Origin: Sulfoacidibacillus thermotolerans
GTDB lineage: Bacteria > Bacillota > Bacilli > Alicyclobacillales > SLC66
Reading direction: 5' to 3'
Assembly (NCBI RefSeq): GCF_003144315.1
Contig: NZ_MPDK01000012.1
Span: forward strand, 1 to 64,000
DNA length: 64,000 bases
Shown: positions 1,476 through 43,679 of the stretch, one piece after another
Layout of the letters: every line of letters begins with the position of its first letter
Numbering within the stretch: the stretch's first letter is position 1
Position numbers and translations under genes: made by a program
The notes under the pieces: model-generated
Told to the model about the DNA's origin: nothing
Database searches by the model: none
What the model saw: only the letters and a program-made list of their open reading frames with translations

Positions 1476-3158
1476 CTACGAGAGAGAAAACGAACTTTTT
1501 AACGAAACAACGCGGTTAAATACGGCAAGATCAGATTCACTCCGCTTTGGATCGACACTGAAATACCCGTGACGAAAGAATTGAAATTTATCATAAGGTT
1601 GTGCTGTCCGTAAATTTTCTTCCACATACCCTTGTAAGATTTCCAGTGAATGAGGATTGATCCGACTCAAGAACGATTCTTCCGATTCGTTCTCCGTTTC
1701 ATTCACCAAAGGCTCAAACAAGCGAAATTCTGCCTTTAGCGCATGCGCTGCGTCGACCCAATGAATCGTTCCCTTCACCTTGCGCTCCGTAAATCCCGAC
1801 CCACTTTTGGTCTTTGGATCATACGTACAGTGAAGTTCGATAATAGAACCATCAGCATCTTTGATCACCTCTTCACAGCGAATAAAGTAAGCATGCTTTA
1901 GGCGAACTTCATTTCCCAAAAATAGACGGAAATACTTGGGCGGTGGATCTTCTAAAAAGTCATCCTGTTCAATGTACAATTCGCGCGAAAAAGGAATCGA
2001 GCGGTTCCCCATTTCTGGATTCTCAGGATTATTCTCAGCTTCCAGCCACTCGGTTTGATTTTCCGGATAATTGGTGATCACGACCTTTAGCGGCCGCAGA
2101 ATCGCCATGGTACGGGGCGCCTTTAATTTGAGGTCTTCGCGCACAAAATGTTCCAACATCCGCTCGTCGACCGTGCTGTTACTTTTGGCAACGCCAATTT
2201 CACGTGCGAATGTGCGAATCGCTTCAGGTGTGTATCCCTTTCTGCGCAATCCTGAAATCGTCGGCATGCGCGGGTCATCCCATCCATCCACAATGCGCTC
2301 ATCGACGAGTTGTTTTAATTTGCGTTTACTCATCACTGTATTTGTCATGTTTAACCGCGCAAACTCATACTGACGAGGTGTATTCTCCATCTCACATTCG
2401 CGGACCACCCAATCGTAAAGAGGGCGATGATCTTCAAATTCAAGCGTGCAAATCGAGTGTGTAACTCCCTCAATCGCATCCTCCAAAGGATGTGCAAAAT
2501 CATACATTGGATAAATACACCACGCATCCCCGGTACGATGATGCTCTGCATGGGCAATTCGATACAACACCGGATCACGAAGATTTAAATTGGGTGAGGC
2601 CATATCGATTTTCGCGCGCAACACTTTTGCTCCATCTGCAAACTCGCCTTTTCGCATCCGCTCAAACAAATCGAGATTTTCTTCTACACTGCGATTGCGA
2701 TAAGGACTCTCCTGTCCAGGTTGTGTTAACGTGCCGCGCATTTCACGTATGCGCTCGGCTGATAAATCACAAACGTACGCCTTCCCCTTCGTGATGAGAA
2801 GCCGGGCACGCTGATACATCTCCTCAAAATAATCCGATGCAAAACATAGCCTGTCCCAATCAAAACCAAGCCACTTCACATCTTCCTTGATTGCCTGCAC
2901 ATACTCTGCATCTTCTTTCAATGGATTCGTATCATCAAATCGCAAATTAGTTTTTCCATTAAATTCATCCGCCAACTCAAAATTCAGACAAATCGATTTT
3001 GCATGACCAATATGCAAATATCCATTTGGTTCTGGCGGAAAACGCGTCACTACGGCCGCGACTTTTCCTGTCCGCACATCTTCAGCCACAATATTTTTTA
3101 TAAAATTTGAAGCAACTGACCCTTGCACCAATTCACTCATCCTTTTGTTATCAATCAA
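1476..3158 (-). CDS. glnS: Glutaminyl-tRNA synthetase
   Basis: Class I aminoacyl-tRNA synthetase that charges tRNA-Gln with glutamine. The catalytic core shows [16 protein letters not shown] (HIGH motif, about residue 40), the acceptor-binding region with CRDS-like ILRPLKVVI further on, and [10 protein letters not shown] as the KMSKS loop near residue 275. Length (about 555) matches bacterial GlnRS, and the two-beta-barrel anticodon-binding half is present (from about 350). The longest frame opens at TTG 3158, while ATG 3140 (MSELVQGS) gives a more usual N-terminus; neither has a strong ribosome site. Many Bacilli lack GlnRS and make Gln-tRNA through GatCAB, so its presence is worth noting. 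Confidence 0.96.
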
Positions 3159-24295: not shown

Positions 24296-25257
24296 CTAAA
24301 GGTCCCCATTAAAAGCATGAAACGCCAAAAGATTCAAGTCTAGCATCTGACTTTTTTTTAAAATCTCCTCTTTCTTTGTGCTCCTTTGTCGAGAGAGCAA
24401 AAATAATTCGTGACGCTGCAATGCAATCGTACTTTGCAGCCACGGCATCTGCCGCAACGTCATCGGGAGACCAAAATAAAACCCTTGACTATACCGAATG
24501 CCTAGTTGTTCAATATAGTGCAGGTCTTCCTCATGTTCAATGCCCTCCACAATGACGCGATCTTGCCAAGGAAGTTGTTGCAAAGCCTCATCAAGCATAC
24601 GTTGTTTGTGTTGAGAAACCGAAATCCCCTGGATCATTTTGCGATCTAGTTTTACATAAGCGGGCGTAAAGGCATTCCACTCGTCCATCCCCATTTCTTG
24701 TAGATTGACATCGTCCAGTGCAACCCGAATCCCATGCGCCTCAAGTTCTCGCAAAATCGGGGCTAAAACGCGCAAATCGTAAGAAATATACTCAATAATT
24801 TCAATGACAATTTGTTGTGCAGCACATCCGTATTCTTTCAAAAGTTGGAGTAAGGAAGGTATAAATTTTTTCTCTAAAAGAGTGGGCGGCATCACATTTA
24901 TAAACAGGGTTGCGCGTGCTAACGGAGATTCTTGAATTGTCCCCACTGCAGTGCGTAAAGCGAGCAAATCGACCTCCAGATGACGATGTTGCATACCCGC
25001 AGATTGAAAAAACCGTTCTGGAGCAAGCACGTGCCCCCCAAGATGAGGCCTGCTTAACGCCTCATACCCTATGACAGTAAGACGCTGATGGTCAACAATC
25101 GGTTGATACATCGTAAATAAACTTCGTTCATTTAATACCCAGGATAAAGAGGGGTCTGCTTCTATGTAATTTAATGGGGTTATTGGTATTATTACCCCCC
25201 CCCCCCCTGGTTGGGGTTTAATTCCTTATATGTTTTTTTATCCCTTTTTGTTTTCAT
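24296..25257 (-). CDS. EAL c-di-GMP phosphodiesterase with poly-G tract in the coding region (out of frame as sequenced)
   Basis: The EAL domain is complete and its catalytic residues are intact: YEALSRP, FINV, VIEIIEY, ALDDVN, YVKLDRK, VEGIE, SQGFYFG. The obvious open frame begins at ATG 25111 inside the domain's first strand (MYQPIVDH). The true start appears to be ATG 25257, 7-8 bases after GAGGAGA, encoding MKTKRDKKTYKELNPNQ and then Gly codons of a G13 tract (25195-25207). With 13 G the frame hits TAA right after the tract; with 14 (or 11) G it continues as VIIPITPLNYIEADPSLSWV into the EAL domain. A paralogue at 42457-43420 has the same architecture. In the sequenced state only internal initiation would give protein. 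Confidence 0.85.
25195..25207 (-). repeat. Homopolymeric G13 tract inside the EAL gene
   Basis: Thirteen consecutive C on the plus strand (G on the coding strand), 17 codons after the predicted start. Tracts of this length are prone to slippage in replication. The gene is in frame only with 3k+2 G residues (11 or 14). Confidence 0.9.
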
Positions 25258-41816: not shown

Positions 41817-42053
41817 TTAGTCTTTGTGCGAAGGCCCCTGTTTTGGCATAGCATAGATACTTCCATTAGCGAGTATGCGATTTACCACTGCAAGCGATAG
41901 TCCAGTATCCCTCACAAGGGATAAGACATTAGCCCCTCGATGAACCTCTAAATATTGTTTCACAGTATGTTGTGCTTCCTCTAAACATAACGGACAAAGA
42001 TGGGGATCGGAACTCGAAAATAGTCCCCCGCATTTTCTACAATGTTTTAACAC
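41817..42053 (-). CDS. yvyF: YvyF-like flagellar-operon zinc-ribbon protein
   Basis: 78 residues from GTG 42053, 7 bases after GGAGG; the longer frame (95 aa) overlaps the cheY-like gene. Begins VLKHCRKCGGLFSSSDPHLC then PLCLEEAQHTVKQYLE, a CxxC...CxxC ribbon, then a helix-turn-helix-like VLSLVRDTGLSLAVVNRILA. This matches the plan of YvyF (TIGR03826), encoded near flgM in Bacillus flagellar operons. Here it follows a CheY-like gene and an EAL gene, supporting a motility role. Confidence 0.72.
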   Translation of the reverse strand: MLKHCRKCGGLFSSSDPHLCPLCLEEAQHTVKQYLEVHRGANVLSLVRDTGLSLAVVNRILANGSIYAMPKQGPSHKD

Positions 42054-42057
42054 ACGC

Positions 42058-42438
42058 TCACCTCCAGTAGCGCATAATACTTTTAATTTCTTGACATAGT
42101 TCATAAGCTTGAAAAGGCTTAGTCACAAAACCTGCAGCTCCAGCTTGAATGGCCTCCATCACCAAATCCTTTTGTCCAATTGCTGAAATCATGACCACAA
42201 GTGCCTCTTGATGCTGAGTTTTTAACTCTTTTAGCGCTGAAACTCCGTCCTGCTTAGGCATTGTAATATCCATTGTTACTAGATCCGGACCACAAGTTTC
42301 ATACAGTTGAAGCACTTGTGTCCCATCTGATGCCTCTCCTACCACTTCCCAACCACAAGAAGTTACGACCTGCCGTATGACACCTCGCATAAAAAGGGAA
42401 TCGTCGACAATCATGATCCGCAAGGGCCATCCCCCCAT
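42058..42438 (-). CDS. CheY-like single-domain response regulator
   Basis: 126 residues, a receiver domain with no output. Acidic pair in IMIVDDSLFMR, phospho-acceptor Asp in VTMDITMPKQDG, Thr/Ser in VVMISAIGQ, and Lys in FVTKPFQ. The DITMPxxDGV and KPF features are those of CheY/Spo0F-type proteins. It would be phosphorylated by CheA and interact with the flagellar switch or a partner. ATG 42438 is 8 bases after AGGGGAG. It lies 18 bases after the EAL gene, thus in an operon under the c-di-GMP riboswitch. Confidence 0.9.
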   Translation of the reverse strand: MGGWPLRIMIVDDSLFMRGVIRQVVTSCGWEVVGEASDGTQVLQLYETCGPDLVTMDITMPKQDGVSALKELKTQHQEALVVMISAIGQKDLVMEAIQAGAAGFVTKPFQAYELCQEIKSIMRYWR

Positions 42439-42456: not shown

Positions 42457-43420
42457 TTAAAGATCACCTTTAAATACATGGTATGAAAGTAAAAGGAGAT
42501 CAAGCGACTTCCCCATCGCAACGACCTGTGCATCAGAAAACGGTCTGTCCCTATGCATAACCATGCTGTGCAACCCCTCTTTTTGCAATTCAATTTGAGC
42601 TAATAACCATGGCGTTTCAGACATTTTCAAAGGTTTACTCCAATAAAATCCCTGACTTAAATGCACTCCAAGCTCGCGAAGAAGATGTAAGTCTTCCCAT
42701 TCTTCAACTCCTTCGGCGACAATTTTCGTTGATTCTGGGATGACTTTAAGTAACCTCTCTACTTGTTTCTGTTGTTGAATCGAACGTGCAAGTCCCTGTA
42801 TCATCGATTTATCGATCTTCACATACTCTGGATGTATCCTGCCCACTTTATCGAGCAGATCTGGTAAATCAGCATCTTCCTGAAGATCGTCGAGAGCAAA
42901 ATACACACCTTGTGACCGCAGCCTGTCGATGGCAGATACTATTTCTTTTGTACAATAAGGAATATACTCAACGAGCTCAATGACAAGTTCCATAGATAGC
43001 TGACGAAAGCGCCCAGCAATCCGTTCTAAAAAGTGGACAAAGCGCGCATCCAATAAATTAGTTGGGATGACATTAATAAATAACGTTTTACAAGACAAAG
43101 AATCATATTGAAAATGGGCAATTGCTTGTTCAAATGCCAAACGATCCGCTGCAGCTTGCTGATTGCAACGAGCTGCACTTTTAAAAAAAATATCAGGGGG
43201 GAAAAACCGCTGATTGAGATAGGGTCGACTTAAGGCTTCATGTGCAATCACTTGCCCGCGGCGATGATCGACAATCGGTTGGTATAATGTATAGAGGGAC
43301 TTCTTTTTTAATACTTCTGAAACCCACCGCTTTTGCAATATTACATTATTTGGTTTTATAGGGTGATTATACCCCCCCCCCCCCCGAGTTGGGATAATTT
43401 AACATATAATGCGTCTGCAT
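42457..43420 (-). CDS. EAL c-di-GMP phosphodiesterase with poly-G tract in the coding region (out of frame as sequenced)
   Basis: Paralogue of the EAL gene at 24296-25257, with intact catalytic motifs: HEALSRP, LFINVIP, VIELVEY, ALDDLQED, YVKIDKS, AEGVE, SQGFYWS. The plain open frame begins at TTG 43338. The better start is ATG 43420, 7 bases after AGAGGG, encoding MQTHYMLNYPNS and then Gly codons of a G14 tract (43372-43385). With 14 G the frame ends at GTA-TAA just after the tract; with 13 (or 16) G it reads YNHPIKPNNVILQKRWVSEV into the EAL domain. The translated flanks on both sides of the tract align with those of the first EAL gene. A c-di-GMP riboswitch precedes it. Confidence 0.85.
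43372..43385 (-). repeat. Homopolymeric G14 tract inside the second EAL gene
   Basis: Fourteen consecutive C on the plus strand. The tract follows an Asn-Ser pair, as the other tract follows Asn-Gln, and the downstream PIKP aligns with PITP. Frame is restored with 3k+1 G residues (13 or 16). Confidence 0.9.
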
Positions 43421-43442
43421 ACACATTCCCTCTCCCTGAATA

Positions 43443-43478
43443 GAATAGAAAAGCAACCTTAATTTCGCTAAGGTTGCC
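43443..43478 (-). terminator. Riboswitch-linked intrinsic terminator
   Basis: GGCAACCTTA-GCGAAAT-TAAGGTTGC followed by TTTTCTATTCT on the minus strand, between the aptamer and ATG 43420. Its 5' arm GGCAACC is complementary to GGGTTGCC of the aptamer's closing stem, so aptamer and terminator arms can compete. Confidence 0.88.
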
Positions 43479-43490
43479 AAAAGTAAATAC

Positions 43491-43572
43491 AAGCGGCAAC
43501 CCGGCTGTCATAGGCTTCGCTGCCCTTAGACCCGTGGCTTTGCGCCCTAACGTTTCCGTTAGTTTGCCTTGA
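43491..43572 (-). ncRNA. Cyclic-di-GMP-I (GEMM) riboswitch aptamer
   Basis: Minus strand begins AAGGCAAAC, then CTAACG-GAAA-CGTTAG (stem capped by a GNRA tetraloop), GGGCGCAAAGCC (the conserved GCAAAGCC core), GGGTCTAAGG with later CCTATGAC (tetraloop receptor, CUAAG/UAUG) and closes with GCCGGGTTGCCG. Every conserved block of the GEMM-I consensus is present in order. It controls the EAL gene and the downstream cheY-like and yvyF-like genes. Confidence 0.94.
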
Positions 43573-43679
43573 AACACTCGATATATGTCGCTGCTTAAGA
43601 AGAATACTTTTATTTTCCGTCAATCTTCGACATTTTTCAAGTTATTTTTTGCTTTATTCATGTAAAATCAAGCTAAGTG

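Follow-up and report, generated by a model that had tools for sequence, protein, structure and literature searches.

An EAL-domain gene behind a c-di-GMP-I riboswitch and a poly-G tract in Sulfoacidibacillus thermotolerans: a probable double gate with counterparts across the order

The locus lies in a window of 64,000 nt (the whole stretch of DNA analysed here) from Sulfoacidibacillus thermotolerans and is read on the minus strand. In the direction of reading it consists of a c-di-GMP-I (GEMM-I) riboswitch aptamer (43492..43578), an intrinsic terminator hairpin (43452..43478), a likely start codon (43418..43420), a tract of exactly 14 G (43372..43385), an EAL-domain gene (42457..43371; 304 codons plus stop; PF00563, 135.9 bits), a gene for a cheY-like response regulator (42058..42438; PF00072, 98.2 bits) and a gene for a YvyF-like small protein (41817..42059). 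The sequence-only reading of this DNA had placed cheY- and yvyF-like genes behind the EAL gene; the first of these assignments stands, while the second is weak, the match to TIGR03826 reaching 30.7 bits for a cut-off of 124. In relatives, FapA, CheY, MCP or CheW is encoded downstream of the EAL gene, and such motility and chemotaxis genes are consistent with a motility role.

The same reading had proposed a GEMM-I aptamer in front of the EAL gene and had named a covariance-model search with RF01051 as a check. This search, performed with cmscan, confirmed the proposal: the aptamer scored 83.4 bits (E 6e-15; gathering cut-off 35 bits) over all the 87 positions of the model (1-87), and RF01051 was the sole Rfam family matched in the window. 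Upstream of the aptamer no confident sigma-A promoter was found, the sigma-70 scan being at the level of the shuffles.

The terminator begins 13 bases past the aptamer end and has an 11-pair stem followed by TTTCTATTCT, and the U-rich tail extends to about 43442. The 5′ arm of the hairpin, GGCAACC, is complementary to the 3′ closing strand of the aptamer, GGGUUGCC (43495..43502, read from 43502 to 43495), hence this strand is common to the aptamer and to the antiterminator. Folding of the 70-nt expression platform gave z = -2.3. The duplex between the aptamer strand CGGGUUGCCGC and the platform had an energy of -14.9 kcal/mol; dinucleotide shuffles averaged -8.6, and none of the 500 equalled it. 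In stepwise folding, an antiterminator of 8-9 bp was the minimum free energy (MFE) structure while the transcript reached about 20 to 36 nt beyond the aptamer; with the 3′ arm of the terminator added, the MFE structure was terminator plus aptamer. The pairing between arm and closing strand that had been read from the letters was thus borne out by both folds and shuffles, and the terminator/antiterminator pairing, the shuffles and the relatives described below agree in making the expression platform mutually exclusive with the aptamer.

RF01051 was found directly upstream at 12 loci with a tract of at least 12 G, namely the window and 11 relatives (L018, L019, L021, L022, L024, L027, L030, L036, L039, L147 and L148), and also upstream at L041, with 8 G, and at L138. 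It further precedes tract-less or decaying copies (L026, L029, L032, L033 and L043), and it was absent upstream of the EAL gene at L035. The pairing between aptamer and terminator arm was stronger than in shuffles at 12 of 18 loci (p < 0.05) and was weak or not significant in L019, L027, L029, L033, L036 and L039. L018, L022 and L024 have GGGCUGCC as aptamer strand and GGCAGC as arm, versus GGGUUGCC and GGCAACC: the U-to-C change in the aptamer is matched by an A-to-G change in the arm, and we considered this a compensatory change. The recurrence of terminator and pairing in relatives, together with this change, supports the OFF logic that had been suggested at the outset, and the riboswitch is best taken as an OFF switch, its response to the ligand being predicted from the pairing. 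It is unlikely that the riboswitch is instead an ON switch, or that it acts on translation rather than on termination. ON switches are known among the other GEMM-I riboswitches of Bacillota, and a clear U-run is absent after the hairpin in L018 and L039, but in the window the strand that holds the ligand is exactly the antiterminator strand, and both terminator and U-run are strong.

Two further arrangements of riboswitches were observed near these loci. At L019 a second c-di-GMP-I riboswitch (2854-2948, plus strand) lies on the opposite strand from the one controlling the EAL gene, about 220 bases farther upstream, so that the two form a divergent pair. In three genomes a cobalamin riboswitch on the minus strand is divergent from the c-di-GMP riboswitch-EAL locus (L032, 858-1030; L043, 446-618; L147, 927-1099).

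The poly-G tract, the proposed phase switch, is inside the coding region, 5′ of the EAL domain. The likely ATG is preceded by the SD-like GGGAGAGGG, in a leader and start layout that is alike in relatives; an alternative in-frame ATG is at 43426. Precisely, the gene of the window runs from the ATG (43420) through 11 codons, TC and G14, after which the frame is open down to 42457 and encodes the EAL domain. With 14 G it is out of frame, with a stop at GTA TAA just past the tract; 13 or 16 G would bring it in frame. Since the length of long G runs is easily misread, each ON/OFF call for a single locus, the OFF of the window included, is uncertain by one base.

By chance, about 0.003 runs of 14 G or more are expected in the genome. 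In the 2.87-Mb genome only two runs of at least 9 G lie outside a phage-like contig, and both are at 5′ ends of EAL paralogues. The second one, of 13 G (25195..25207, minus strand; in frame with 11 or 14 G), belongs to a paralogue (24296..25186, minus strand; PF00563, 140.5 bits) that is 38% identical to the first and has no riboswitch, both the RF01051 matches of the genome lying elsewhere. A third run of at least 9 G, on contig C88, was set aside because it is at the contig end and the contig carries phage-like small ORFs; the run has 12 G, and the contig (L045, G000:C88) could be a contamination of the assembly.

In the order, EAL genes with 12 to 22 G at the homologous place were found in 19 genomes of two families. 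The tract is at the same codon position in the near-closed genomes G021, G025, G035, G037, G049 and G054; it is also present in drafts of A. sendaiensis, A. mali, A. macrosporangiidus, A. contaminans, A. kakegawensis, A. shizuokensis, A. tolerans and A. montanus, and in the genus of the window (G000 and G002). We took the tracts of at least 11 G from the tract listing of 59 genomes of the order and verified those at EAL genes with the EAL profile on the retrieved stretches: 21 of the 98 tracts belong to EAL leaders, and among these 98 tracts in the 59 genomes we saw no second site that recurs. When only near-closed genomes are counted the fraction is 8 of 17, with a chance of about 2e-25 on the assumption of a rough target of 100 nt per EAL gene. 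Outside the order, none of 62 EAL loci has the tract. At L138 (Alicyclobacillus sp. ALC3, G054:C1:2050178) a riboswitch, the same leader and G17 precede a different, EAL-PAS protein; since its architecture is another one, the cassette appears to be common to different EAL genes.

The tract could in principle be an assembly or sequencing artefact (a miscalled short stretch), or the gene a decaying pseudogene. Several draft contigs do break off exactly at the tract, and many of the long G tracts found elsewhere in the order are at contig ends, where several look artefactual; the run of A. fructus (G022), which lies at a contig end and is poly-C in the sense strand, was excluded as an artefact. 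We nevertheless considered this explanation hardly credible, because the tract recurs at one codon position in near-closed genomes and in the 19 genomes of two families, and because the ORF is under purifying selection (see below).

In a separate observation, L143 (G040:C1:789500-797500) has the same leader with G21 twice, at positions 1478 and 6016, hence 4.5 kb apart. The EAL frame behind the first copy ends after about 130 residues, and this looks like a duplication or an insertion through the cassette.

We compared tract lengths between species, with one genome per species. At the 16 readable loci with at least 12 G, the three frames were represented 7, 5 and 4 times, which does not differ from a uniform distribution (chi2 0.9). 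The EAL domain is in frame in seven of them (L021, L027, L030, L036, L039, L138 and L148) and out of frame in the other nine, five and four in the two off frames (both genes of the window, L018, L019, L022, L024, L035, L143 and L147). Frames were called from the SD-preceded ATG, or from GTG in L148 and GTG or TTG in L019; L147 is in frame from an upstream GTG, which makes its call ambiguous. In the off frames stops follow soon after the tract, and length variation that changes the frame was seen between species. A pair of leaders with 4 differences in 199 positions has G20 in one and G12 in the other. Where the tract is missing, as in L029 and L033, the gene reads through in frame; L032, whose DNA is otherwise near-identical to that of its sister L147, has GGGTGGGCGG in place of G18 and is in frame.

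In tract-bearing, moderately diverged pairs dN/dS was 0.20-0.23. For the two closest pairs (99% identical) it was 0.51 and 0.72, the differences being too few for a firm value. These ratios indicate that the EAL frame is under purifying selection despite the mixed frames, and the pattern looks like a translational contingency locus, neither a pseudogene nor a normal ORF. The phase variability that had been claimed for the EAL gene from the window only has gained strong comparative support, both from the conservation of the tract and from the mixed frames across relatives. Automatic annotation may label the gene as a pseudogene because many of the sequenced tracts are out of frame.

Slippage at the RNA level, of either the polymerase or the ribosome on the G run, would also permit all three genomic frames with the ORF under selection; in this case some in-frame protein would be made in every cell and there would be no heritable switching. 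We considered it quite unlikely. In fact, the length of the tract evolves quickly, differing between near-identical loci; loci with a broken or missing tract are in frame, as expected if the frame matters; and documented bacterial transcriptional slippage is mostly at A/T runs.

A still weaker case can be made for the tract being a structural roadblock (a G-quadruplex, or a C-run/G-run hairpin) or a promoter spacer and not a frame switch. Ahead of the tract lies a pyrimidine-rich, CCCC(TTC)-like stretch, and TATAA is frequent behind it (TATAAT in the window), but the hexamers after the tract (TATAAA, TATTAT, TTAAAC and TAATAT) are no conserved -10 box, for which reason the spacer was rejected; moreover, tracts of 12-21 would shift any -35 box into the G run, and tract-free relatives stay in frame across the site. 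We considered either role very unlikely.

The EAL protein of the window has the metal and catalytic residues E45, N100, E132, D161, D162, K185, E220 and E223, and its AlphaFold2 (AF2) model is an EAL barrel (pLDDT 86) with the EAL domain of YahA (4lj3) as best PDB match. Its loop 6 is DDLQEDAD, a degenerate form that departs from the intact DDFGTG-like loop usual in active enzymes, where most relatives have DDVGxG. The protein may therefore bind c-di-GMP rather than cleave it, and the catalytic activity of the window copy, though an EAL-domain protein, is doubtful as judged from these residues.

At the C-terminus there is a two-helix extension (42469..42618, minus strand; helices 252-272 and 280-301 in the AF2 model) that corresponds to the Spo0E-like domain of relatives. 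In the family, PF09388 was matched by 11 of 14 members at E ≤ 1, with a best E-value of 4.6e-10 and scores up to 39.7 bits, and the match is above the cut-off in L020, L021, L026 and L027; the family profile also matches 2c0s and 2bzb. The copy of the window had no PF09388 match at E ≤ 1 and is a diverged one, with a helix hairpin and a partial motif, so that we only infer a Spo0E-like domain there. No paper on an EAL-Spo0E fusion was found in the open-access literature.

Taken as a whole, the locus is probably a doubly gated gene for a predicted c-di-GMP phosphodiesterase, with the riboswitch as an OFF gate and slippage in the poly-G tract as the other gate. The first gate would be graded and transcriptional. 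With c-di-GMP bound, the closing strand would be kept in the aptamer and the terminator would form, so that transcription of the EAL-cheY-yvyF unit would stop at high c-di-GMP; with the ligand absent, the closing strand would invade the 5′ arm of the terminator and RNA polymerase would read through. Since the product should degrade the ligand of the riboswitch, a double-negative loop would result, which would favour two stable states, one with low c-di-GMP and motile, the other with high c-di-GMP and sessile.

The second gate would be stochastic and translational: slippage of the poly-G during replication, a few codons into the gene, would put the EAL domain into or out of the reading frame, and two of every three tract lengths would yield no more than a peptide of about 17-20 residues. 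In each lineage, the length of the tract would hence permit or preclude production of the enzyme. Given its own SD (AGGGGAG), cheY would plausibly still be expressed in off-frame cells. In view of the Spo0E-like domain in the product of most relatives, ON cells may also lose Spo0A~P, as far as domain content can suggest. As a tentative extension, to which we give somewhat less than even credence, the OFF riboswitch and the poly-G in series on a bifunctional EAL-Spo0E protein may serve an order-wide bet-hedging, in which one slip would set both c-di-GMP and Spo0A~P and would decide stochastically between motile growth and biofilm or sporulation.

Similar components are known from other systems. 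The flgB operon of C. difficile combines an OFF riboswitch for c-di-GMP, in series, with the invertible flagellar switch (PMC8844915) and is therefore like the locus of the window in having such a riboswitch and a phase switch before motility genes; unlike it, the switch is a site-specific DNA inversion upstream, not a homopolymer in the coding region, and it gates flagellar genes rather than a c-di-GMP-degrading enzyme. In the same species cmrRST also joins a c-di-GMP riboswitch to phase variation (the cmr invertible switch; PMC8844915), but the riboswitch is an ON switch of another class (class II), the mechanism is inversion and the products are two-component regulators. The phosphodiesterases PdcB and PdcC of C. 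difficile are stochastically ON or OFF and shift c-di-GMP, motility and biofilm (PMC9286219); they differ in being GGDEF-EAL proteins behind an invertible promoter region, with neither a homopolymer switch nor a riboswitch described in front of them in the passages on these genes.

Homopolymer switches are known as well. Poly-A frameshifts occur in swrA of B. subtilis at about 1e-4 to 1e-5 (PMC2831843); this is also a homopolymer near the 5′ end of an ORF in a spore-former, swrA being a motility regulator, but the run is A8/A9, the gene encodes a transcription regulator and there is no riboswitch. In the poly-G/C contingency loci of Campylobacter, Helicobacter and Neisseria, slippage of a G tract near the gene start leads to translational ON/OFF (PMC6321876, PMC5953494); these are mostly genes for surface structures in host-adapted Gram-negatives, whereas here a second-messenger enzyme of environmental spore-formers would be switched.

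Phase variation of c-di-GMP phosphodiesterases is a recent topic, and a 2025 review gives it only by inversion (C. difficile) or by an epigenetic switch (some E. coli) (PMC11868660). No c-di-GMP phosphodiesterase under a simple-repeat switch came up in the open-access literature, and nothing on the poly-G, riboswitch and EAL arrangement in the open-access works on Alicyclobacillus phase variation or c-di-GMP. Poly-G, c-di-GMP-I OFF riboswitch and EAL(-Spo0E) gene, conserved over the order, appear to be an undescribed combination of known kinds, of which a prior description elsewhere is possible. If the bet-hedging reading is true, the locus would give the first example of a c-di-GMP phosphodiesterase switched by a simple sequence repeat, and the second messenger would be tied to the sporulation phosphorelay in a new way. 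Environmental spore-formers appear to share the riboswitch-plus-phase-switch logic of C. difficile by means of a poly-G kept across two families, and the locus offers a testable model for stochastic motile/sessile, perhaps also sporulation, decisions.

Some other G runs and riboswitches were recorded in these genomes as single cases. Runs of 11 to 12 G were seen at or inside the start of a nucleotidyltransferase-like gene (L151, G041:C82), of a nuclease-like gene (L150, G033:C5) and of a membrane protein gene (L133, G025:C1:1531320), each of which is possibly a further phase-variable gene. The only other c-di-GMP-I riboswitch in the genome of the window (L047, G000:C79, 489-572; 70.7 bits) precedes a gene for a secreted, Ser/Thr-rich, low-complexity protein, followed by one for an exported protein that looks transglutaminase-like, and this could be a case of adhesion controlled by c-di-GMP.
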